Source of the DNA: a virus
Reading direction: 5' to 3' (one strand)
IMG/VR virus record: IMGVR_UViG_3300023174_000077
Location: 1-64,000 of that record
DNA: 64,000 bases
Part shown: positions 1 through 9,227 of the stretch, one piece after another
Layout of the letters: each line of letters opens with the position of its first letter
Numbering within the stretch: position 1 is the first letter of the stretch
Made by a program: the position numbers and the translations under genes
Notes under the pieces: model-generated
The model's database searches: none
The model's input: the letters and a program-made list of their open reading frames with translations, nothing else
Told to the model about the DNA's origin: nothing

Positions 1-120
1 ATCATTAATTTAGAAATGTTTATCATAATTTTAATTTTTATAAAAGTAGTTTAATTTTTGGAATTGAGCAAATTTTAGATGTTAAAGTTTTGTGAAACTG
101 ATTGGCTCAGCTCCGCAGAT

Positions 121-202
121 GGTATTACTCACTCTGTGAGTCTATCGGAGATAGTAAATTGTGCACTATATGTAAAAAATAAATAGTGCACAATTTAATA
201 CC
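121..202. repeat. GTGCAC palindromic element, copy 1 (with inner insert)
   Basis: Inverted repeat. The left arm GGTATTA (121-127) plus AAATTGTGCACTAT (156-169) pairs with ATAGTGCACAATTTAATACC (183-202). The left arm is interrupted by 28 nt made of two small palindromes, CTCACTCTGTGAG (128-140) and CTATCGGAGATAG (142-154). The flank GGCTCAGCTCCGC (about 103-115) is the reverse complement of the flank on the other side of later copies. Confidence 0.85.
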
Positions 203-226
203 ATTTCGGACCGTTAGAGTTTGAAT

Positions 227-258
227 AAAAAAAAAGCACCCAATGGGTGCTTTTTTTC
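227..258. terminator. Bidirectional terminator downstream of the HTH gene
   Basis: Stem AGCACCC (235-241) / GGGTGCT (245-251) with an A-run on the left and a T-run on the right, so it can stop transcription from either side. It sits just past the stop codon of the 496-aa minus-strand gene. Confidence 0.85.
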
Positions 259-271
259 AAATATTAAAAAT

Positions 272-1762
272 TTAATGTTTTATTAGAATGTTTAACATAG
301 GTGAACTATCTGTATAACGATAAGCAAATATATTACTCGAATTAATAATAAATTTATCAACAAATTCGTTTTCAAAAGTTATTCGTTCCATATCAACTGA
401 ATAATCTATATTTAATAATTCATATAAAATATTTTTCACATGACTACAAATACTTAAGTTTTCAACACCCATTACAGATATTGTAAATAAAAAATATTTA
501 TCGGACAATAAAGTTTTTTGCTTATTAAATAAAGTTGTAATACGCTCTTTCTCTGAATTCCACCGACACATTAAATCAATATCCATAATAGGTTTTGGCT
601 GTGCCGCAATAATATCTCCAAATGTAATATTAATCTTTTCATCTATTAATTTTTTTGCCGTATTACATAATACATCAATATCAATTTCATGAGAATATAT
701 AAAATTATCACCTATGATATTTAATTTATGTAACATTTCGATATACCTTTCTGGTGTGGGGCCTAATAAAGTTAATATAGGTTTATTAACATTAGCAAGT
801 TTTGTATATAAATCTGTTTGCACATAATGTTTTCTTGGCGTATTAGAATATTCTTTTTTTAATTTAACATCATTCTTAATAGATAAAATTTGTTTATCTA
901 ATTTAGATATATCAAATTTTCTTATGTTTGCATCATAATTTAGCAATAAACGCTTTCTTTTTTCCGTTACTTGTTGAATCGAACGATGCCATTTTTTACA
1001 AAATTCATTATTATTAAAATCCTTAACAAGTATATCTAAATATTCCTCTTTTGACCATTTTTCACCAAACCTACTAGCAGTTAATGACGACTGATAATAT
1101 AATATTTTATGATGTACACCATGCCCAGTCTTATTTAGTATATTAGATATTTCTTTATATGTCATCCCCTCATCAAACAATTTTATAGCATGTTTTATTT
1201 CATTTAATGTCCAATGACAAGACGAAAATAATTCCTTAGCTTTTTTTGAATTACGCTTGGATTTTAAAGAAATATTTTCATTACGTTCCAAACGCTTTAT
1301 AGTGTTAATTTTATTCCTAACAATATTACCATTTATATTAAGCTCCCTTGTTATAGCTGGTATCGAAGCGTTAATTTCTAATAACCCTTTCAATTTGGCT
1401 TCAAGTTCATTAGTCCATTCAAAACGTGCTTTACTAGGTATGTCCAACCCTTTATATCTAACCAAATAAATACGTTTTTTAGTCAAAGCAGTTTTCGGTA
1501 AACTCATTAAATTAGAAATAGAACTAATTGATAAACCTTCTTTAAGATGTCCAATAAATGTGTTAACCAATTCTTCTGTCCATTCAACCGTAATATTGCC
1601 AAATTTTTCAACTCTAATGTTCCCTTGATTGATATGATATTGCTTTAAAATTAAAGTCTTTTCTGGTATTGATAAAATATCCGAAATATCTTTATAAGAC
1701 ATATTATTTTTACGATATTCTAAAAATAAATCTTCTGTTTCTTTTGTGAATACTTTTCCCAT
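272..1762 (-). CDS. Multi-HTH (SANT/Myb-like) DNA-binding protein with possible methyltransferase-like C-terminus
   Basis: A 496-aa protein that I do not recognise as a named family. Residues 1-270 contain about five copies of a helix-turn-helix-like unit. Four begin with a tryptophan (W61 WTEELV, W116 WTNELE, W184 WTLNEI, W236 WSKEEY) and continue with patterns such as GMTYKEISNIL; the first unit (MSYKDISDIL) has no Trp. Residues about 327-440 resemble a Rossmann methyltransferase core: LLGPTPERY as a degenerate motif I, an acidic YSHEID strand end, FGDI, then DIDLMC. Catalytic motifs are not clear, so activity is doubtful. It is the only large gene in the palindrome-rich 7.7 kb and lies between two palindromic elements. 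A role in binding these repeats is inference only. Confidence 0.8.
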   Translation of the reverse strand: MGKVFTKETEDLFLEYRKNNMSYKDISDILSIPEKTLILKQYHINQGNIRVEKFGNITVEWTEELVNTFIGHLKEGLSISSISNLMSLPKTALTKKRIYLVRYKGLDIPSKARFEWTNELEAKLKGLLEINASIPAITRELNINGNIVRNKINTIKRLERNENISLKSKRNSKKAKELFSSCHWTLNEIKHAIKLFDEGMTYKEISNILNKTGHGVHHKILYYQSSLTASRFGEKWSKEEYLDILVKDFNNNEFCKKWHRSIQQVTEKRKRLLLNYDANIRKFDISKLDKQILSIKNDVKLKKEYSNTPRKHYVQTDLYTKLANVNKPILTLLGPTPERYIEMLHKLNIIGDNFIYSHEIDIDVLCNTAKKLIDEKINITFGDIIAAQPKPIMDIDLMCRWNSEKERITTLFNKQKTLLSDKYFLFTISVMGVENLSICSHVKNILYELLNIDYSVDMERITFENEFVDKFIINSSNIFAYRYTDSSPMLNILIKH

Positions 1763-1852
1763 AATATTACAACAAAAATAGCCTTTCTTTTTAGACTAAC
1801 CAAATTACAAATGTTAAAGTTAAGTTAATGATTTGCACTCAGACGCTTCGGA

Positions 1853-1969
1853 ACATATAAAATTGTGCACGATATATTGTTTGGTTAAATACTCACTTCG
1901 TGAGATTCACGGAGTGAAAGCTCGCAAAGCGAGATTCGTTGAAAACGAATAGTGCACAATTTTATATGT
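1853..1969. repeat. GTGCAC palindromic element, copy 2 (longest)
   Basis: Outer arms ACATATAAAATTGTGCAC (1853-1870) and GTGCACAATTTTATATGT (1952-1969) are perfectly complementary. The 81-nt interior is a string of small palindromes: CTCACTTCGTGAG, TTCACGGAGTGAA, CTCGCAAAGCGAG and ATTCGTTGAAAACGAAT. Most of the 1763-2133 gap is this element; the rest is AT-rich with no visible gene. Confidence 0.9.
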
Positions 1970-2119
1970 CTATCTACCCGATTCGATTCACAAACAAATT
2001 AATTTTTTTAAATATAACTTTTATGAAATATTTATTTTTTTTTTATATAATGTAGAGCAAGATGCAGTGATAAATAATATATGCAAAAATAAAATATTAA
2101 CTAAATCTTTCAAAAAGAA

Positions 2120-2130
2120 TTAATATATAA
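2120..2130 (+). promoter_or_regulatory. TTAATATATAA motif (putative phage promoter)
   Basis: Exact TTAATATATAA ending 3 nt before the ATG at 2134. The same 11-mer precedes many genes elsewhere in the window, which suggests a phage promoter with very short leaders. Confidence 0.45.
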
Positions 2131-2133
2131 TCA

Positions 2134-2313
2134 ATGAAAGATTATTTAATTGATATATTACCAGAACTTAAAATTGCATTAAATATGCAATTAAATTATA
2201 TTAATGATATTCCACACCTAACATTAATAAAAACTGATGTAGAAACAATTACAATCATAGGTGATACTGAAATAACAACTTACCTAAATAAATTAATTAA
2301 TTTTGAAATTTAA
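2134..2313 (+). CDS. Hypothetical small protein (59 aa)
   Basis: Short ORF starting MKDYLIDILPELK and ending NKLINFEI. It has alternating charged and hydrophobic residues, no signal peptide and no membrane segment. Support comes from an upstream TTAATATATAA motif and a hairpin terminator directly after the stop. No family recognised. It is the first of a series of orphan small genes separated by palindromic elements. Confidence 0.55.
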   Translation: MKDYLIDILPELKIALNMQLNYINDIPHLTLIKTDVETITIIGDTEITTYLNKLINFEI

Positions 2314-2349
2314 ATGTTAAAATTTATTTTAAAATTTTAACATTTTTTA
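2312..2349 (+). terminator. Terminator after 59-aa gene
   Basis: Inverted repeat AAATGTTAAAATT...AATTTTAACATTTTTT overlapping the stop codon at 2311-2313 and ending in a T-run. The stem is AT-only. Confidence 0.6.
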
Positions 2350-2381
2350 TTTGGCTATTTCATTTACAATCAATACATTTG
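2350..2381 (+). promoter_or_regulatory. Bacteroidota-type promoter
   Basis: TTTG (2350-2353), 20-nt spacer, TACATTTG (2374-2381), matching the known TTTG / TAnnTTTG consensus of the Bacteroidota primary sigma factor. It lies 15 nt upstream of the ATG at 2397. Confidence 0.7.
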
Positions 2382-2396
2382 ATAAAACATTTCAAA

Positions 2397-2660
2397 ATGG
2401 CCAAACAAAAGAAATTAAAACTTGATTTCAGAATTTTATCTGACGTTAAATGCATTTGTGGCTGCAATAGATACATTAAACAAAATGTGATTGATAGAAA
2501 CCCAACAGCCAGAAATTGCTATTTGAGCCACCTACTCGCTCACGGTAAAACACAGATATTCGCAGGTGCCTCAACTGATATAAGAACAGGTATAAGAACA
2601 CCTCGTTATATAAACATTCGTGAAACATTAAATCATATTAAAAGAAAACAACTTGTATAA
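2397..2660 (+). CDS. Small Cys-containing protein, putative zinc-binding (87 aa)
   Basis: The start MAKQKKLK is chosen because a promoter -7 box overlaps the alternative upstream TTG at 2379. The protein is basic. The segment CICGCNRYI followed by NCYLSHLLAHG gives a C-x-C-x-C ... C-x3-H-x3-H spacing that could bind zinc. No family recognised. It stands alone between a terminator and a putative RNA gene. Confidence 0.65.
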   Translation: MAKQKKLKLDFRILSDVKCICGCNRYIKQNVIDRNPTARNCYLSHLLAHGKTQIFAGASTDIRTGIRTPRYINIRETLNHIKRKQLV

Positions 2661-2695
2661 TAACATTTTGTAAAAAAACATTTTGTTGAAAATTG

Positions 2696-2727
2696 TTTTG
2701 TAGTTTCAAAACTTTTTTTTATCTTTG
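2696..2727 (+). promoter_or_regulatory. Bacteroidota-type promoter of putative ncRNA
   Basis: TTTTG (2696-2700), 19-nt spacer, TATCTTTG (2720-2727). It is a strong consensus match with no ORF of useful length following it. Confidence 0.7.
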
Positions 2728-2729
2728 CA

Positions 2730-3042
2730 GTATAATAAGCAACAAGGACAAGAGCAGCAAATTAAATATTCAAACAATAAAATCGTAAATTTAAAAGTTA
2801 GCGTCTTGGGATAGCGCCGGTGGTACAATTAATTTAATAAAACCTTTTTCACACGCCACCGAAACACTAAAAATTGTCCTGCATAAAATTACTATACAGC
2901 AATTCTTAACAGGATACATTGGTTCAACTCCAAAAATAGTAATTTGATACTCATATTAAAACATTAAATTTGTTTAATGATTTTCATGTGTTTTTGGTTA
3001 CACAAAAAAACTCTTATTGAGCAATCATTAAGAGTTTTTTAT
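2730..3042 (+). ncRNA. Candidate structured non-coding RNA
   Basis: About 310 nt between a consensus promoter and a terminator, with no ORF worth calling. Complementary segments visible by eye: CGGTGG with CCACCG (around 2817-2865), GTCCTG with CAGGAT, and AAATTACTAT with ATAGTAATTT (around 2887-2945). Just inside the last pair is GGTTCAACTCC, which fits the tRNA T-arm consensus GGTTCRANYCC. The space between the arms is too short for a tRNA, so a tmRNA-like or T-loop RNA is possible. The family is unknown. Confidence 0.5.
3009..3042 (+). terminator. Terminator of putative ncRNA
   Basis: Stem AACTCTTA (3009-3016) / TAAGAGTT (3029-3036) followed by TTTTATTTTT. Confidence 0.8.
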
Positions 3043-3057
3043 TTTTATACAATTCTC

Positions 3058-3290
3058 CGTTACCAAAAAGTGTAACAAAAATATGTAACACATCTCATAT
3101 TATATTTTTTTCTTATATATCATCATATTTCTTTTTTATTTTATATTTAGTATTTGGTATTAAATATAATTAGGCTATGATAACTATCAATTTCATTAAT
3201 CTGAAATAGATTTACAATTTCAAAAAAATTTATGAAAAAATAAAAAAAACTTATCCACTTAATCCAACAATTTATCCACACTCGAAAATC
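3058..3290. other. AT-rich duplicated intergenic block A with DnaA-box-like site
   Basis: No gene. It contains GTTAC/GTAACA repeats, a 45-nt AT-rich stretch ending TTAGGCTATGATAACTA (3141-3185), and TTATCCACA (3272-3280), a perfect match to the DnaA-box consensus, with a weaker TTATCCACT at 3251. The same three parts recur in the same order at 5260-5445. Origin or regulatory function is a guess. Confidence 0.5.
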
Positions 3291-3301
3291 GAGCTATCAT
3301 A

Positions 3302-3490
3302 CATATTAAATTGTGCACGATTCGTTTTAAACGAAAGTATTTAAAATTATTTTATATAAATTATTTATATATGTTTCTGGTTAAAACCAAGAGATTTCTG
3401 GTTAAAATTCATATTAAATTGTGCACGATTCGTTTTAAACGAAAGTATTTAAAATTATTTTATATAAATTATTTATATATGTTTTTGGTT
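3302..3490. repeat. Two tandem half-elements (81-bp direct repeat, period 108)
   Basis: Unit 1 (3302-3382) and unit 2 (3410-3490) differ at one base by eye. Each begins CATATTAAATTGTGCAC and carries GATTCGTTTTAAACGAA, with no matching right arm. The 27-nt linker between them, with ACCAAGAGATTTCTGGTT, reappears inverted at 5540-5573. The ORF that spans these repeats is not credible as a gene. Confidence 0.85.
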
Positions 3491-3516
3491 TTTTACATCC
3501 GCACACATCCATGAAA

Positions 3517-3605
3517 CATATTAAATTGTGCACTATATAACCAATCATTTTCAGAAGGCATACCAAGCAAAGAAGTATTTAGTGAATAGTGCACAATTTT
3601 ATATG
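3517..3605. repeat. GTGCAC palindromic element, copy 4
   Basis: Left arm CATATTAAATTGTGCACTAT (3517-3536), right arm ATAGTGCACAATTTTATATG (3586-3605). It is followed by the recurring flank ATCGCCGGAGCTGAGA. The interior has no strong inner palindrome. Confidence 0.88.
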
Positions 3606-3627
3606 ATCGCCGGAGCTGAGACAATTT

Positions 3628-3686
3628 CTTTAACATAACATTAACAAAATAAATTTTGCCACTAAAAAATAATTAACTACTTTTAC
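3628..3686 (+). promoter_or_regulatory. Shared promoter block, copy 1
   Basis: A 33-nt block beginning CTTTAACATAAC and ending AAATTTTGCC (3628-3660) contains the -33 box TTTTG. A 19-nt spacer leads to TACTTTTAC (3678-3686). Nearly identical blocks stand before two other small genes (3970 and 4613), each with a 19-nt spacer. Confidence 0.7.
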
Positions 3687-3689
3687 ACT

Positions 3690-3863
3690 ATGATATTTAA
3701 TAATCCAATTCGTTCGGGAAAAGTAAGAAACGGTATCAATTGGTATCAGTATAAAAATGGAACTATTGTAATAGAAAAACAAAAATATATCTTTTATAGT
3801 ATAAAAGAAGCAATAGCTAAATATAGAAAACAATTTCCCAAATATAAAAAACTTTGTGTTTAA
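3690..3863 (+). CDS. Hypothetical small basic protein (57 aa)
   Basis: Starts MIFNNPIRSGKVRNG at an ATG 3 nt after the -7 box, so the mRNA is nearly leaderless. It is rich in Lys, Tyr and Ile, ending YKKLCV. The core NGINWYQYKNGTIVI looks like a short beta hairpin. No family recognised. Its own promoter, a following hairpin and a flanking palindromic element make it one cassette of the array. Confidence 0.65.
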   Translation: MIFNNPIRSGKVRNGINWYQYKNGTIVIEKQKYIFYSIKEAIAKYRKQFPKYKKLCV

Positions 3864-3878
3864 TGCCTCGATTTCGGA

Positions 3879-3904
3879 AGGCTTTCCTTTTCTAAGGAGA
3901 GCCT
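3879..3904 (+). terminator. Hairpin after 57-aa gene
   Basis: AGGCTTTCC (3879-3887) / GGAGAGCCT (3896-3904), one mismatch. There is no clear T-run, so it may act only as a weak terminator. Confidence 0.45.
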
Positions 3905-3913
3905 AAATAATAT

Positions 3914-3933
3914 ATAGTGCACAATTTTATATG
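3914..3933. repeat. Right half of GTGCAC element (orphan)
   Basis: ATAGTGCACAATTTTATATG with the usual downstream flank ATCGCAGGAGCTGAGA, but no left arm upstream. It is a half element. Confidence 0.75.
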
Positions 3934-3969
3934 ATCGCAGGAGCTGAGATTCTACGAGCAATAAAATAG

Positions 3970-4028
3970 CTTTAACATAACCTTAACAAAATAAATTTTG
4001 CCGAACAATAATAATAACCTATTTTTAC
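3970..4028 (+). promoter_or_regulatory. Shared promoter block, copy 2
   Basis: The 33-nt block CTTTAACATAACC...TTTTGCC (3970-4002), a 19-nt spacer after TTTTG, then TATTTTTAC (4020-4028). Confidence 0.7.
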
Positions 4029-4044
4029 ACAAAATTAAAAACTT

Positions 4045-4410
4045 ATGAAATATTTAGGTGTAGACATTTACAAAACTTCAACATATAATAGTTGTCCTCT
4101 AAATTATTCAGACAAATTTACCAAATTTGTTATTGAGTGTGAAAAAGGCAATTTATCAAAAGAAGATATTGAAGGTTACGCCATTATAAGAATTGTAAAG
4201 GGTAATTTGCCAAATACGCTAAAAGCGGTAATCATAGACCCAACTACAAATCAAAAATTAGTTTTAAATAAAGCCGTAGAAATGTTTGGCGGATATTACG
4301 TTGTAACATCAGATTCAAGGTTTAGCGAATTATGTAAAGCAATTTTAGGATTAGATATTCATTTTAGTTATCCAATCCCTTTACACGACAGATATGAATA
4401 TGTAAATTAA
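4045..4410 (+). CDS. Hypothetical protein (121 aa)
   Basis: A cytoplasmic-looking alpha/beta protein starting MKYLGVDIYKTSTYN. No signal peptide, membrane segment or recognised motif. The middle part, with AVIIDPTTNQKLVLN, looks like a small beta-sheet domain. It has its own promoter block (3970-4028) and a strong terminator (4431-4461), so it is a one-gene transcription unit between palindromic elements. Confidence 0.8.
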   Translation: MKYLGVDIYKTSTYNSCPLNYSDKFTKFVIECEKGNLSKEDIEGYAIIRIVKGNLPNTLKAVIIDPTTNQKLVLNKAVEMFGGYYVVTSDSRFSELCKAILGLDIHFSYPIPLHDRYEYVN

Positions 4411-4430
4411 TATATTCTCACATATAGTGA

Positions 4431-4461
4431 AAAAAGTCGCTCATTTGAGCGACTTTTTTTT
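4431..4461 (+). terminator. Terminator
   Basis: Stem AGTCGCTCA (4435-4443) / TGAGCGACT (4446-4454) followed by eight Ts. Confidence 0.9.
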
Positions 4462-4502
4462 GTGCATTTCATGCACACGATTCATGAGGGCATCGATGGG
4501 AA

Positions 4503-4584
4503 ATATTAAATTGTGCACTATTCGTTTTCAACGAATCTCACAAAGTGAGTATATGGTTATATAATATAGTGCACAATTTAATAT
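4503..4584. repeat. GTGCAC palindromic element, copy 6
   Basis: Arms ATATTAAATTGTGCACTAT (4503-4521) and ATAGTGCACAATTTAATAT (4566-4584), perfect. The interior has inner palindromes ATTCGTTTTCAACGAAT and CTCACAAAGTGAG. Right flank GATCGCCGGAGCTGAGA. Confidence 0.92.
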
Positions 4585-4612
4585 GATCGCCGGAGCTGAG
4601 ATGATAAAATCG

Positions 4613-4671
4613 CTTTAACATAACCTTAACAAAATAAATTTTGCCAGCACATTATAATAAACTACTTTTAC
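4613..4671 (+). promoter_or_regulatory. Shared promoter block, copy 3
   Basis: The 33-nt block 4613-4645 is identical to copy 2. After TTTTG (4639-4643) there is a 19-nt spacer and then TACTTTTAC (4663-4671). Confidence 0.7.
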
Positions 4672-4689
4672 ATCACAAATAAACAAATA

Positions 4690-4869
4690 ATGAATATAGA
4701 AACACACATAAAGAACATTAAACCAGGAGACACTATCCTATTCAATAACGTCCCAACAACCGTCACAGAAAAAAATATTAAATATGACAAATTTATAGGC
4801 AAAACTTTATTTGGTGACTCTTACAATTTAGGAACTAAACTCGTTATTAAAATCACCTCTGATAAATAA
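4690..4869 (+). CDS. Hypothetical small protein (59 aa)
   Basis: Starts MNIETHIKNIKPGDTILFNN and ends KLVIKITSDK. The pattern KPGDTILFNNVPTTVTE followed by beta strands suggests a small beta-barrel (SH3- or OB-like). No family recognised. It lies 18 nt after the -7 box and 11 nt before the next gene, so the two form a small operon. Confidence 0.65.
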   Translation: MNIETHIKNIKPGDTILFNNVPTTVTEKNIKYDKFIGKTLFGDSYNLGTKLVIKITSDK

Positions 4870-4880
4870 CATTTTGTAAT

Positions 4881-5198
4881 ATGTCACTCCACACAGAATA
4901 TATCAAAATAGAAAATATAGAAGTAAAATTCTCCATCCATTTCAATAGAAATAAAATCAATTATTTCACATATGAAAAAATTGATATAGGTTACCGTGTT
5001 TCAGCAACACCAGTCAAACGAACACAAGATAAAAATATTACAATCGAGGAATCCGTAGCTTTCAGTGGATTTGCAGATACCTTATTGATAGCCGAGAGGC
5101 AAAGCAAAAAAAGACTTGAAGAAGCAATCAAAATACTCAATGATAGAAAAGAAAAATATATAAATTGGTTTAAAGAAAAATATAATCTTAAAACTTAA
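4881..5198 (+). CDS. Hypothetical protein (105 aa)
   Basis: Second gene of a two-gene unit that starts at the promoter block 4613-4671. Starts MSLHTEYIKIENIEV. The first half is predicted beta-rich, the last 45 residues (AERQSKKRLEEAIKILND onward) a charged amphipathic helix. No signal peptide or recognised motif. Followed by a terminator. Confidence 0.75.
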   Translation: MSLHTEYIKIENIEVKFSIHFNRNKINYFTYEKIDIGYRVSATPVKRTQDKNITIEESVAFSGFADTLLIAERQSKKRLEEAIKILNDRKEKYINWFKEKYNLKT

Positions 5199-5232
5199 AC
5201 GCTGTTATTTGTTTTTTGTGACCATAAATAAA

Positions 5233-5256
5233 GACCCCTTTTCTAAGGGGTTTTTC
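5233..5256 (+). terminator. Terminator
   Basis: ACCCCTTTTCTAAGGGGT hairpin with a T-run, directly after the 105-aa gene. Confidence 0.85.
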
Positions 5257-5259
5257 TTT

Positions 5260-5445
5260 ATGTTACACTTTTTTGTAACATTTTTAATATTATAATTTTT
5301 CTTAATACGTTATTATATTTTGGTTTTATCTTATATTTAATGCTTTATATTAAATATAATTAGGCTATAATAACTACTCGCTCAATCATTACACAATGTA
5401 TAAAAAAATTCTAAAAAACAAAATTTATTTTATCCACACGAACTG
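5260..5445. other. AT-rich duplicated intergenic block B with DnaA-box-like site
   Basis: Second copy of the block at 3058-3290: inverted repeat TGTTACA / TGTAACA (5261-5280), the AT-rich stretch ending TTAGGCTATAATAACTA (5331-5376) and TTATCCACA (5430-5438). A third, more diverged block (6650-6829) keeps only GTAACA/TGTTAC and a TTTCCACAG. No gene seen. Confidence 0.5.
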
Positions 5446-5452
5446 TAGCATC

Positions 5453-5594
5453 ATATTAAATTGTGCACTATTCGTTTCCAACGAATCTCACTTCGTGAGT
5501 ATATATTTATAGTATATATAGTGCACAATTTAATATAAATTTTTACCAGAAATCTCTTGGTTTAACCAGAAACAAATAGTGCACAATTTAATAT
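5453..5594. repeat. GTGCAC palindromic element, copy 7, plus extra right arm
   Basis: Left arm ATATTAAATTGTGCACTAT (5453-5471) pairs with ATAGTGCACAATTTAATAT (5518-5536). A second identical right arm follows at 5576-5594. Inner palindromes are ATTCGTTTCCAACGAAT and CTCACTTCGTGAG. The segment between the two right arms (5540-5573) is the inverted copy of the linker at 3373-3407. Confidence 0.9.
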
Positions 5595-5719
5595 AATTTC
5601 GAAGCCTGTTTTTATGAGTTTTTGTTTTTTAAAAATTTTTAAAGCACTGTTTCAATACAGTGCTTTTTTTTATGCATTCACTCAAGCATCGAATCGACCT
5701 GAATCGACATCGAAAAGTA
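5593..5719. other. Gene-less cassette (empty version of the next cassette)
   Basis: Left 39 nt (5593-5631) match 5769-5807 except two bases, and right 75 nt (5642-5716, including terminator AAGCACTG...CAGTGCTT) match 6084-6159 with a few changes. The promoter and gene found between these parts in the next cassette are missing and replaced by about 10 nt. Confidence 0.8.
5641..5672 (+). terminator. Orphan terminator
   Basis: AAGCACTGTTTCAATACAGTGCTT followed by Ts. No gene upstream within its cassette. Confidence 0.75.
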
Positions 5720-5770
5720 ATATTAAATTGTGCACTATATAACTATATAATATAGTGCACAATTTAATAT
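5720..5770. repeat. GTGCAC palindromic element, copy 8 (short)
   Basis: Arms ATATTAAATTGTGCACTAT (5720-5738) and ATAGTGCACAATTTAATAT (5752-5770) with a 13-nt loop. One of the two minimal forms, without inner palindromes. Confidence 0.92.
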
Positions 5771-5805
5771 AATTTCTAAGCCTCTTTTTATGAGTTTTTG
5801 TTTTT

Positions 5806-5833
5806 TAGTTTCAAAAAAATATTCTTATCTTTG
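5806..5833 (+). promoter_or_regulatory. Host-type promoter
   Basis: TATCTTTG at 5826-5833, with TAGTTTCAAAA about 20 nt upstream, as also seen before the ncRNA promoter. The -33 box is less clear than at other sites. Confidence 0.55.
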
Positions 5834-5855
5834 TTAAACACAAAAAACAAATATT

Positions 5856-6056
5856 ATGAATTGTCAAAGATGTGATAATCAAGAAGCCAAAAGCTTAACT
5901 TGCTCACGCTTCAATACACAAATGATTTGCAACACTTGCGAACAAAAAGAAAAACAACACAAAGACTATCAAAAAGCGTATGATACTGAACTCAACGAAG
6001 TTAAAAAGGGCAACTATAACTTTGAAGGGATCGGTTTACCTGACGATTTAAAATAA
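5856..6056 (+). CDS. Conserved-type zinc-ribbon small protein (66 aa)
   Basis: Two Cys pairs, CQRC near the N-terminus and CNTC about 25 residues later, suggest a zinc ribbon. The rest is a charged helix ending KGNYNFEGIGLPDDLK. From memory, similar small proteins with a C-x2-C pair, FNTQMIC and a GN(Y/F)NFEGIG tail occur in plasmids and phages, with no function known to me. It is a single-gene unit with a host-type promoter and the terminator at 6084. The neighbouring cassette lacks this gene but keeps the flanks. Confidence 0.8.
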   Translation: MNCQRCDNQEAKSLTCSRFNTQMICNTCEQKEKQHKDYQKAYDTELNEVKKGNYNFEGIGLPDDLK

Positions 6057-6078
6057 TTTATAAAAAATTAATATATTA

Positions 6079-6113
6079 AAAAAAAGCACTGTTTCAACAC
6101 AGTGCTTTTTTTT
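6079..6113 (+). terminator. Terminator
   Basis: AAGCACTGTTTCAACACAGTGCTT with A-run before and T-run after. Confidence 0.88.
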
Positions 6114-6162
6114 ATGCATTCAACTCAAGCATCGAATCGACATGAATCGACATCGAAAATTA

Positions 6163-6214
6163 ATATTAAATTGTGCACTATATGTTTTTAATTATATAGT
6201 GCACAATTTAATAT
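6163..6214. repeat. GTGCAC palindromic element, copy 9 (short)
   Basis: Arms ATATTAAATTGTGCACTAT (6163-6181) and ATAGTGCACAATTTAATAT (6196-6214), minimal loop. It is preceded by TCGAATCGACATGAATCGAC, also seen before copy 8. Confidence 0.92.
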
Positions 6215-6354
6215 GATCGCGTAGCTAGGGTCTAACATTAGCCCTCATTTGTATTAAACTCGTTTGTAATTTTTTCATTTGCGAAAAATAAATACAAAAA
6301 TTAATATATCTCAACTAACAAACTGATTTAACTTTTTCTTAACTTTTTCTTACC

Positions 6355-6362
6355 TATCTTTG
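6355..6362 (+). promoter_or_regulatory. Host-type promoter -7 box
   Basis: TATCTTTG ending 15 nt before the ATG at 6378. Upstream sequence has repeated TTTAACTTTTTCTTAAC. The -33 box is not clear. Confidence 0.55.
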
Positions 6363-6377
6363 TTAAAACAAAAAAAA

Positions 6378-6554
6378 ATGAAAACCATAACAATATTATT
6401 TTTCTTATTTGGACTATTCTCCACATATAAGATTAAAAAAGAATGTGGCGAATGGAAACATTTTAATATAAATGAAGTTTCTCTTATATATAATGTCGGA
6501 TTTATATTAGGTATTATAATATTGTTCGTACTGATAATTAAATACTTACCGTGA
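6378..6554 (+). CDS. Small membrane protein (58 aa)
   Basis: The start MKTITILFF is preferred because the longer reading would begin at a TTG inside the promoter -7 box. The first 15 residues (ITILFFLFGLF) and residues about 33-55 (VGFILGIIILFVLII) are hydrophobic, giving two membrane segments, or a signal anchor plus one segment. The middle KIKKECGEWKHFN is polar. No family recognised. One-gene unit. Confidence 0.7.
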   Translation: MKTITILFFLFGLFSTYKIKKECGEWKHFNINEVSLIYNVGFILGIIILFVLIIKYLP

Positions 6555-6617
6555 GTCTCGCTTTACGAGTACAATAAAAATTTGTTATTTGTTATTTGTT
6601 TTTTAGTGTGATTATGT

Positions 6618-6645
6618 AGCGCCTTTTCTAAGGCGCTTTTTTTAT
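6618..6645 (+). terminator. Terminator
   Basis: AGCGCCTTTTCTAAGGCGCT followed by seven Ts. Confidence 0.9.
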
Positions 6646-6829
6646 ATCCGTAACAAAATTCTGTTACACTTCCACTCCTCTCAACCTCTAACCAAATATT
6701 AAATTAATATTATATACTTTTATTCTTTTATAATTATCTTTTTTATAAAATCAAATATACAAAAGTTTCCACAGAAAAACATATTTTAGCCGTTCTAATA
6801 TAGTGCACGAATCCTTGCGTCGATCGATC

Positions 6830-6912
6830 ATATTAAATTGTGCGCTATATAATTAAAAACATATACTCACTTTGTGAGATTCGTTGAAAACGAATAGCGC
6901 ACAATTTAATAT
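6830..6912. repeat. Palindromic element, copy 10, with compensated GTGCGC/GCGCAC arms
   Basis: Arms ATATTAAATTGTGCGCTAT (6830-6848) and ATAGCGCACAATTTAATAT (6894-6912). The usual GTGCAC is changed in both arms so that pairing is kept. Inner palindromes ACTCACTTTGTGAG and ATTCGTTGAAAACGAAT. A fragment ATAGTGCAC lies just upstream at 6800-6808. Confidence 0.92.
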
Positions 6913-7041
6913 GATTATCATGCCTCAGCGTTTCAAAAACATATTACAAAAATTTATATATGTCGTTGAACTAAACATTAACTTTTCTTTAACAATATAT
7001 TCACTAACTTAGTGTTTCACACATGTATATTCAAACAACAT

Positions 7042-7093
7042 ATAGCGCACAATTTACTATCACTCCGTGATAGAGTCACTTTGTGAGTAATAT
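7042..7093. repeat. Half palindromic element with inner insert (copy 11)
   Basis: ATAGCGCACAATTTA, then CTATCACTCCGTGATAG (7057-7073), then GTCACTTTGTGAG, then TAATAT. Read in reverse it has the same plan as copy 1 (insert between TAATAT and TAAATTGTGC). The left arm is absent. Confidence 0.8.
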
Positions 7094-7136
7094 GACCGAT
7101 CATTTTTGCTATCTACTTTGAGCAAGTTCAAACAAC

Positions 7137-7193
7137 ATTAACTTTTCTTTAACAACTAACTATTGTTAGCCTCAATAAAACAAACTATCTTTG
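7137..7193 (+). promoter_or_regulatory. Host-type promoter with upstream repeat
   Basis: AACATTAACTTTTCTTTAAC (7137-7156) repeats a block at about 6976-6995. TTG (7163-7165) and TATCTTTG (7186-7193) form the promoter with a 20-nt spacer. The first block lacks a clear -7 box and a gene. Confidence 0.6.
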
Positions 7194-7217
7194 TGTAATC
7201 ACACAAATAAAAAATCT

Positions 7218-7562
7218 ATGACTATTCAATTCTCAATCGTTGATAAATCAACTGATACAAAAAATTTAGACGAAGTTTTACAAAAAATTAAAGCTAACTT
7301 CATATTCAATACTAAAGAATATATTAGCGACAAAGCCTTCGATACAATATGTGAAATAGCAAAATCAATCTTAATAAAAGATAAACAATTAAATCATAAC
7401 ACAAAACTAATTAGACGTATCTTAAAACACAACACTACTAATACAACTCCAGAAGATATAAAAGATACCGAACTTAAACTAAATACATTATTACAAAATA
7501 TACATTTAGAAACAGAAATCAAACAAGCTTTTAATATACAACTTAATCCTCATATGAACTAA
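7218..7562 (+). CDS. Hypothetical protein (114 aa)
   Basis: The start MTIQFSIVDKSTD is chosen because the longer reading begins at a TTG in the promoter -7 box. Mostly helical and charged (DKAFDTICEIAKSILIKDK), with no membrane segment or recognised motif. Single-gene unit with host-type promoter and strong terminator, the last cassette of the palindrome array. Confidence 0.7.
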   Translation: MTIQFSIVDKSTDTKNLDEVLQKIKANFIFNTKEYISDKAFDTICEIAKSILIKDKQLNHNTKLIRRILKHNTTNTTPEDIKDTELKLNTLLQNIHLETEIKQAFNIQLNPHMN

Positions 7563-7582
7563 CATATAAATATTAGACATAG

Positions 7583-7620
7583 AAAAAAGGCCAAGCTATT
7601 ATAGCTTGGCCTTTTTTCTA
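7583..7620 (+). terminator. Terminator
   Basis: AAAAAAGGCCAAGCTATTATAGCTTGGCCTTTTTT-type hairpin, bidirectional in form. Confidence 0.92.
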
Positions 7621-7656
7621 TATATGATACATAGCAAGAGTTCGAGCTGTAGCGAT

Positions 7657-7676
7657 CATATTAAATTGTGCATTAT
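7657..7676. repeat. Left half of palindromic element (copy 12)
   Basis: CATATTAAATTGTGCATTAT with the flank GAGCTGTAGCGAT on its left, the mirror of the usual right flank. No right arm. It is the last copy in the window. Confidence 0.75.
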
Positions 7677-7776
7677 TTAATTATATAACATTATTAAAGT
7701 TATGTTAAAATTAGGTATGGCGCATTTTGCGATATGTTAATATTATGTTAAATATAGGGTATATGGACTATGCTCG

Positions 7777-7808
7777 AAAAGTGCCCTTTAGAGGCTCCTG
7801 GTACTTTT
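7777..7808 (+). other. Isolated hairpin
   Basis: AAAAGTGCC (7777-7785) / GGTACTTTT (7800-7808), nine pairs with one G-U, followed by T-rich sequence. Possible RNA element or terminator; no gene ends here. Confidence 0.35.
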
Positions 7809-7864
7809 TAGGTTTGTTTTTTCTTTTAAATCCCAAACTTATCCAAGAAACTTCTCCTATTGAA

Positions 7865-8110
7865 GGATTTTTTATCGTTCTAAATTTCCAAAAAAATTCC
7901 AAAAAAATTGTATAGTTAAATCTATTAAACTCTTTAAGGTGGATTTTTTATTGTTCCAAATATTTTCCAAATCAATTGAAAAAAATTTCAAAATAATCTA
8001 TATTTTATTCTATAGAAATCTATAAGGTGGATTTTTTATCGTTTTATAATTTTTGAAAAATCCTGTATACTTAAATCTATTGAAGTATATAAGGTGGATT
8101 TTTTATCGTG
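7865..8110. repeat. Spaced GGATTTTTTAT repeat (4 copies)
   Basis: GGATTTTTTAT at 7865, 7941, 8029 and 8096. The last three sit in AAGGTGGATTTTTTAT and follow AAATCTAT by a few to some 15 nt. Spacing is 76, 88 and 67 nt. A degenerate copy, GTGGATTTTTTGTTAGG, lies near 9181. With the hairpin at 7777 this fills the gene-free 7563-8181 stretch. Confidence 0.7.
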
Positions 8111-8144
8111 TATGTTAAAGTCATGAGTTTTTTATTATGAATTA

Positions 8145-8155
8145 TTAATATATAA
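8145..8155 (+). promoter_or_regulatory. TTAATATATAA motif
   Basis: Exact 11-mer 26 nt before the ATG at 8182. Confidence 0.55.
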
Positions 8156-8181
8156 GTTTAAGATTAAAAAAAATTATAATT

Positions 8182-8535
8182 ATGAAATATTTAAAATTAT
8201 TTGAAAACTTCAAAATAAATGAAGATAAGTTTCACGATAACTTAAATGGATACTCACTTTTCATGAATAAGGAAAAGCAAGAAAAGTCTGGATTCGCTAA
8301 AGGTGATAAAGTTGAGTTTGACTTCAAAAAAACTGATGGTTCAATTGAGCAAACAGTAGAAGGTGTTGTTGAGAATGTTTATGGTGAGGCAGAAAATCCA
8401 GAAGATGCTAAGACAAAATTTGATTACCCAATAAAAAACTGGGCAGTAGTTGTTAGAACATCAAAATCTTTATGGCAATTTGGTTCAGATGAAAGTAAAT
8501 TCCAATGGAGCTTAAAAGATTTAAGAAAAATCTAA
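8182..8535 (+). CDS. Phage protein with MKYLKLFENF leader (117 aa)
   Basis: Begins MKYLKLFENFKINE, a short peptide shared with several other proteins in the window and reminiscent of T4 capsid-targeting sequences. The body, from KGDKVEFDF onward, looks like a small beta-barrel (SH3/KOW-like): KGDKVEFDF, VEGVVENVYG, WAVVVRTSKSLWQF. No enzyme motif. It is preceded by the TTAATATATAA motif and followed by a terminator, so it stands alone. Packaging in the head is inferred from the leader only. Confidence 0.8.
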   Translation: MKYLKLFENFKINEDKFHDNLNGYSLFMNKEKQEKSGFAKGDKVEFDFKKTDGSIEQTVEGVVENVYGEAENPEDAKTKFDYPIKNWAVVVRTSKSLWQFGSDESKFQWSLKDLRKI

Positions 8536-8536
8536 T

Positions 8537-8569
8537 AAAAAACCTCTCAATTTGAGAGGTTTTTTATTT
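8537..8569 (+). terminator. Terminator
   Basis: AACCTCTCAATTTGAGAGGTT with flanking A- and T-runs. Confidence 0.9.
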
Positions 8570-8625
8570 TAAATATATCAAATTACTCCTCTAATTATTA
8601 TTTTAATTTATTATTAAAAAATATA

Positions 8626-8657
8626 TTTGTTATATTTTATTTTTTTGTGTATATTTG
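8626..8657 (+). promoter_or_regulatory. Bacteroidota-type promoter
   Basis: TTTG (8626-8629), 20-nt spacer, TATATTTG (8650-8657). Confidence 0.65.
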
Positions 8658-8660
8658 TAT

Positions 8661-8921
8661 ATGAATATGCCTTATTATTATATCTCGAATGAAATTCCTA
8701 TATTAGTTTGTATAAATGATTCTATATCTGTAATTAGTAATAAATTTACTCACATTAAAATAGGTTCATTATGCAATACTAAGCAATTAGATTTTGGTGC
8801 TAGTTATTTGAATTATATAGGTATATTTATAGAAGGTGTATATTATGGTGCACATTCTACTAAGAATTTTGTAACATTAGGTGAGTTTCGTAATATGAGA
8901 ATTTTAGAAATTTTAAATTAA
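8661..8921 (+). CDS. Hypothetical protein (86 aa)
   Basis: ATG at 8661 (MNMPYYYISN) is only 3 nt after the -7 box. ATG at 8667 is equally possible and would leave a normal short leader. Beta-rich, Tyr/Ile-rich, no membrane segment long enough to call and no recognised motif. The next gene starts 4 nt after its stop, so they form an operon. Confidence 0.65.
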   Translation: MNMPYYYISNEIPILVCINDSISVISNKFTHIKIGSLCNTKQLDFGASYLNYIGIFIEGVYYGAHSTKNFVTLGEFRNMRILEILN

Positions 8922-8924
8922 AAT

Positions 8925-9179
8925 ATGATATTTAAGATAATGCTTGTTAATAAGCTTGATGATTTTAAGTTTGGTGAGTTATATATGTATAATAGTATGA
9001 TAACATATTATTTAGAATCTAAGAAAAAGCATTCTATATTTAATAGTAATTATGATATAATTGGATATTTGGAGTGGAATGATATTTTAGATAATTTTGT
9101 TCGTGTAGAGAATTGGGAGTCTGATTTACAATCGGTGGATAATTTATTTAATTTGTATATGGATCATAATTTAGGTTAA
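8925..9179 (+). CDS. Hypothetical protein (84 aa)
   Basis: Starts MIFKIMLVNKLDDFKFGELY. Acidic and aromatic-rich, no signal peptide or recognised motif. Co-transcribed with the preceding gene. A GTGGATTTTTTGTTAGG sequence, related to the 7865-8110 repeat, follows its stop. Confidence 0.65.
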   Translation: MIFKIMLVNKLDDFKFGELYMYNSMITYYLESKKKHSIFNSNYDIIGYLEWNDILDNFVRVENWESDLQSVDNLFNLYMDHNLG

Positions 9180-9227
9180 TGTGGATTTTTTGTTAGGTTT
9201 GGAAAATTTCTGCTTCTTTAGGCGGTT

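Follow-up and report, generated by a model that had tools for sequence, protein, structure and literature searches.

A palindrome-punctuated array of small-gene cassettes in a putative T4-like phage fragment

The window analysed here is the first 64 kb of the 122,094-bp uncultured virus record IMGVR_UViG_3300023174_000077. Its left end holds an array of about ten small, unrelated genes, mostly organized as promoter–gene–terminator units with members of one palindrome family between them. With a probability of roughly one half, we read it as an accessory (hyperplastic) array of regulatory cassettes resembling in its working the promoter-early stem-loops (PeSLs), which Arbiol (2010) and Comeau (2014) reportedly describe as mobile regulatory cassettes of T4-type phages. 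The palindromes would serve as recombination joints at the DNA level and would have spread together with the promoter units. On its left side the array runs into the contig end, and the extents given hold for this incomplete record and for one genome.

Layout of the array and its palindromes

On both strands, the usual order of a unit is terminator, palindrome, TTAAC-N6-TTAAC repeat, Bacteroidota-type promoter and one or more small genes unrelated to those of the other units; comparison of the array proteins with each other gives no convincing similarity. The gene at 272-1762 is directed leftward, as is a truncated gene at the contig end, and all others are directed rightward. The promoter box TAnnTTTG lies at most 45 nucleotides (nt) upstream of 5 of the 10 array genes, compared with 8 of 116 other open reading frames (ORFs), and 11 terminators are found in the array versus 1.7 expected. 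These numbers agree with an earlier description made from the letters of the window (the sequence-only reading), in which most small genes had host-type promoters and terminators of their own. Together with the promoter blocks repeated between units, the TAnnTTTG enrichment reproduces the repeated intergenic units with a host-type promoter that are typical of PeSLs; these promoters would presumably be active early.

Inspection by hand finds one 19-nt arm, ATATTAAATTGTGCACTAT, as eight inverted pairs along with six half copies, all within 151-7676. A search of the whole record with the arm pattern ATTAAATTGTGCAC, allowing at most one mismatch, yields 21 matches, all at 153-7673, and a single match for the reversed control pattern. 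In the 64-kb window, three mismatches give 51 matches versus 23.3 ± 4.4 in shuffles. The arms are repeated about 22 times in the array, and no copy is found in the remainder of the 122-kb record, which confirms the earlier count of at least eight paired and several half copies, with none after 7700. All 14 elements are intergenic, an outcome that random placement gives once in 20,000. Furthermore, the paired elements fold as single-stranded DNA far better than shuffles (z from -3.5 to -10.6), and DNA folding of the long ones predicts an outer stem enclosing two to four inner hairpins.

Traces of rearrangement

Three units with unrelated genes, at 3.6, 3.9 and 4.6 kb, have in common blocks that reach from the right arm through the promoter. 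The stretch 3907-4049 is 82% identical to 4559-4694, and 3506-3687 is 75% identical to 4491-4672. Homology between units spans arm and promoter and stops either in a palindrome loop or at the gene. A gene-less unit matches the head and tail of the unit at 5740-6217, lacks the gene between them, and has homology that begins and ends in palindrome loops. Elsewhere, an 84-nt stretch containing one arm is present in tandem (3299-3490). In the half copies at 3914, 5576 and 7042, classified by eye, the arm is kept and other sequence is joined just inside it.

The palindrome interiors occur in both orientations (E2 and E8 versus E4 and E5), whatever the direction of the genes. E8 corresponds to an inverted E7 plus the 31-bp double hairpin ATTCGTTTTCAACGAATCTCACAAAGTGAGT, and E4 to an E6-like element with that insert added. 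The insert is present in four elements and precisely missing from the short forms. TAT is found on both sides of the insert, and therefore an insertion with a 3-bp duplication and a slippage deletion are both possible. Hairpins of the form CTCAC-N3-GTGAG occur five times in the record, always inside the array, and are absent from the relatives and huge phages scanned. Arms resemble their partner in the same element more than the arms of other elements, with 4 mismatches within elements versus 7.25 expected (P = 0.036, n = 8 elements), and both E2 and E8 carry matched double changes that preserve the pairing between arms.

We infer that recombination lies behind these traces. Small early genes would be laid out as separate transcription units, mostly bounded by a shared terminator–palindrome–TTAAC–promoter cassette. 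The palindromes may be extruded in hairpin or cruciform form, or may favor template switching, and the recombination or replication of the phage itself would break and rejoin DNA inside the loop or next to it. The outcome would be units duplicated, inverted, fused or emptied of their genes, and the palindromes would spread along with them rather than by transposition. Copies confined to the array are what is predicted if the palindromes travel with cassettes, and this confinement disfavors free transposition; that they vary in orientation and in where they lie between terminator and promoter disfavors a role as RNA. As for the enzymes that might act, a weak EndoVII-like match at 64992-65189 (17 bits, below the cut-off) is a candidate resolvase, no more.

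Several points weigh against the recombination-joint reading. No second genome with the array is found among five relatives, four huge phages, IMG/VR and about 85,000 prokaryote genomes, so that shuffling of genes between phage genomes is something we infer. The palindrome is not a terminator here and stands apart from the promoter, unlike in PeSLs. Moreover, duplication and inversion could arise by ordinary recombination between any repeats, the palindromes being passive or binding sites.

Comparison with known systems and competing explanations

The hyperplastic region of phage RB49, searched in the same way, contains repeated intergenic units of about 100 nt with a hairpin beside the -10 box at gene starts. 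The array shares with PeSLs the repeated intergenic units with host-type promoters, set between small unrelated genes in the accessory region of a T4-like genome, and cassettes that are homologous where the genes are not. In agreement with this, the record encodes a large terminase, a clamp loader and a UvsW-like helicase by family matches, all T4-like genes. In RB49, however, the hairpin (AGGGGAT stem) lies inside the promoter by the -10 box, whereas the array has palindromes of 50-113 bp with 19-21-nt arms and nested hairpins, in either orientation, upstream of the promoter and apart from the terminator. Since the stem-loop is not a promoter-fused terminator here, we class the array as a variant of PeSLs and not as a member. 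Such units were named PeSLs and credited with gene shuffling between T4-like phages (PMC4503421). With this known analogue fitting the layout, the proposal of an undescribed system in the sequence-only reading was too strong. The array hints that, beyond the T4-type phages of enterobacteria, evolution has realized the PeSL principle with different components. By what routes large phages acquire and shed their many tiny orphan genes is still mostly an open question, and the visible joints, the emptied unit and the filled and empty hairpin pairs in this huge-phage relative are places to study it.

The palindromes might instead be operators, the arm being bound by a regulator (a host MarR/OhrR-type protein or the 496-residue multi-helix-turn-helix (HTH) protein encoded within the array) that controls all the small early genes jointly. 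Paired palindromes generally stand upstream of the cassette promoter, and the half copies retain a nearly intact arm. A scan of about 85,000 prokaryote genomes returns a single isolated palindrome, in Chitinophaga silvisoli, where a near-identical pair, AATTAAATTGTGCACAATTAA... (about 1500-1560 of the locus, mid-contig), stands immediately upstream of a MarR-family gene with an OsmC-family gene after it. This is a typical operator position, and the palindrome is likely an OhrR-type operator. Because this sole similar palindrome precedes these two genes, we keep an operator role in consideration, as an unlikely alternative, although the match could be due to chance. Against it, the 19-mer is only partly dyadic, being asymmetric about GTGCAC with 10 outer and 3 inner bases, and it is repeated throughout one array; the arm changes of E8 keep the pairing between arms and lose the dyad within each arm; and the distance to the promoter and the orientation differ among elements.

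Rather unlikely, in our view, are mobile or self-propagating hairpin elements inserted between genes, of the kind of miniature inverted-repeat transposable elements (MITEs) or of mitochondrial double-hairpin elements. The latter, also called repetitive hairpin-forming elements, are short, intergenic and built of one to four small, nested and variably present hairpins (PMC2800124). Our elements resemble them in all these respects, have terminal inverted repeats, are small and non-coding, and lie in both orientations, and the TAT-flanked double hairpin is precisely present or absent. The phage hairpins differ in belonging to one fixed palindrome, either inside it or next to it, and in being limited to a single region, with every copy in 7.7 kb of 122 kb. 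No clear target duplications of whole elements and no empty sites are seen, no Y1 transposase is found in the record or four relatives, and the precise indel could also be a slippage deletion between the TAT repeats. Searches beyond the record add no dispersed copies. No copy is found in the remainder of the closest relative's contig, in four other relatives, in four huge phages or in 396 Bacteroidota genomes, the related phages and the phylum in which the earlier description had proposed to look. IMG/VR contigs searched with paired arms, a single arm, the B-end and the double hairpin return nothing or lone arms, and the lone arms in viral contigs mostly share one recurring, unrelated context. 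The relatives collected through terminase and glycosyltransferase searches contain no comparable palindrome array; in one of their loci, six overlapping hairpins cluster within 270 bp in a tandem-repeat-like manner.

We consider quite doubtful a phage-borne cassette system in which the nested palindromes, as cloverleaf-forming DNA, would be dedicated sites for cutting and joining by a phage enzyme. Whole promoter–gene–terminator units would then be captured, inverted, duplicated or emptied, and the double hairpins would move in and out.

The sequence-only reading had compared the layout to integrons and to REP/MITE-type hairpins. Its cassette-like aspect is supported, with unrelated genes between homologous units and breaks in loops or at genes, and membership in either class is not. 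Integron-like cassettes, in which a site-specific recombinase acts on palindromic attachment sites, would account for units of one or two genes, the folded site between units and the loop junctions. We regard them as very improbable: no tyrosine recombinase, which that reading had proposed to look for along with a Y1 transposase, is found in the record or four relatives (the record is incomplete and an integrase could lie elsewhere), and the attC core (GTTRRRY / RYYYAAC at site ends) is represented by one chance GTTRRRY in 14 elements. Furthermore, promoters in each unit and genes on both strands are unlike integron arrays. REP/REPIN sequences with TnpA-REP are likewise palindromes interspersed between genes, but they differ in sequence, in their genome-wide spread and in the Y1 transposase. 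Membership in integrons or REP elements is thus unsupported, the searches having found neither a tyrosine recombinase nor a Y1 transposase nor an attC core. It is equally improbable that the elements are no more than common intergenic hairpins or terminators, or that they are a product of misassembly, as a repetitive array at a contig end might suggest. The palindromes have no T-runs and form a sequence family, separate T-run terminator hairpins stand beside them, and terminators elsewhere in the record do not share the arms; the sequence-only reading would have been overturned by palindromes present as ordinary terminators in all related genomes, and in this record they are not ordinary terminators. 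The repeats are short enough to be spanned by ordinary reads.

Source, genes and other features

The terminase of the record is 59% identical to those of two uncultured phages of 635-642 kb (LR756502 and LR745206). Matches to these phages are found for 61 of its 127 ORFs, with the order kept over long stretches (about 18-122 kb here versus 92-215 kb there). The terminase identity and the shared gene order suggest that the record is probably a fragment of a large T4-like phage related to this huge-phage group. The host is probably a member of the Bacteroidota, as judged from the -7 boxes. A 143,836-bp contig with a 91% identical terminase is the closest relative, and it is collinear with the record from 18.3 kb to the end. 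Its contig begins just past the array and tail-spike region, and its lack of the array is therefore uninformative.

Table 1. Coordinates of array features in the window (E, paired elements; h, half elements).
Feature	Position	Strand	Remarks
E1, short palindrome	151-201		double hairpin just outside left arm, about 121-150
E2, long palindrome	1855-1967		four small hairpins nested inside; divergent promoters on its two sides
h3a, half element	3303-3321		left arm only
h3b, half element	3411-3429		in 84-nt tandem repeat (3299-3382 / 3407-3490, 98%)
E3, paired palindrome	3518-3604		interior unrelated
h4, half element	3914-3932		right arm, unrelated sequence on its left
E4, long palindrome	4503-4584		double-hairpin insert 4520-4550
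E5, long palindrome	5453-5536		90% identity to E4
h5, half element	5576-5594		head of gene-less unit
E6, short perfect palindrome	5720-5770		arms 21 nt, loop 9 nt
E7, short perfect palindrome	6163-6214		E8 is inverted E7 + 31 bp
E8, long palindrome	6830-6912		both arms changed in matched way (GTGCGC / GCGCAC)
h8, half element	7042-7060		double hairpin outside arm, 7057-7088
h9, last half element	7658-7676		right edge of array
Gene-less unit copy	5563-5773	+	repeats unit 5740-6217; 90% and 92% identity either side of missing gene
Intrinsic terminator	5641-5666	+	others: 229-257, 4430-4459, 5230-5255, 6077-6114, 6618-6637, 7579-7621
TTAAC-N6-TTAAC	3630-3645	+	upstream of cassette promoter; others: 1828(-), 3972, 4615, 6328, 6978, 7138, 7751(-)
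496-residue multi-HTH protein	272-1762	-	PHROG 323, D5-like regulator, E 8e-11; sole large array gene
59-residue ORF	2134-2313	+	
87-residue ORF	2397-2660	+	
57-residue ORF	3690-3863	+	
121-residue ORF	4045-4410	+	weak phage relatives
59-residue PHROG 3623 protein	4690-4869	+	60-66% identity to proteins from many Felixounavirus-type phages
105-residue ORF	4881-5198	+	
66-residue Cys-containing ORF	5856-6056	+	PHROG 27033
58-residue hydrophobic ORF	6378-6554	+	
114-residue ORF	7218-7562	+	

The multi-HTH protein contains several HTH/Myb-like modules, and tblastn returns no match to it among named phages. Its predicted structure has a mean pLDDT of 37.9, and only its two N-terminal HTHs are usable. 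The identity of the PHROG 3623 protein to its Felixounavirus-type counterparts is unusually high for such distance, suggesting a recent gene transfer.

The TTAAC-N6-TTAAC motif is a Pho-box-like direct repeat with an 11-bp period. Most copies lie a short way upstream of array promoters, and other parts of the genome and the relatives have almost none. Nine copies occur in the record, eight of them at 1.8-7.8 kb; spacings of 4 and 5 nt give none, and 7 and 8 nt one each. It could be an operator of the OmpR/PhoB type. We dropped its identification as a Pho box because the repeat is not enriched near Bacteroidota pstS genes.

The roughly 300 nt between 2716 and 3045 show no clear ORF, run from a promoter-like box to a terminator-like hairpin and possibly encode a small RNA; an Rfam search over 1-9200 gives nothing above the gathering threshold. 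To the right of the array, three imperfect direct repeats around AAGGTGGATTTTTTAT at 7891-8126 lie upstream of the gene at 8182 and perhaps represent another class of promoter.

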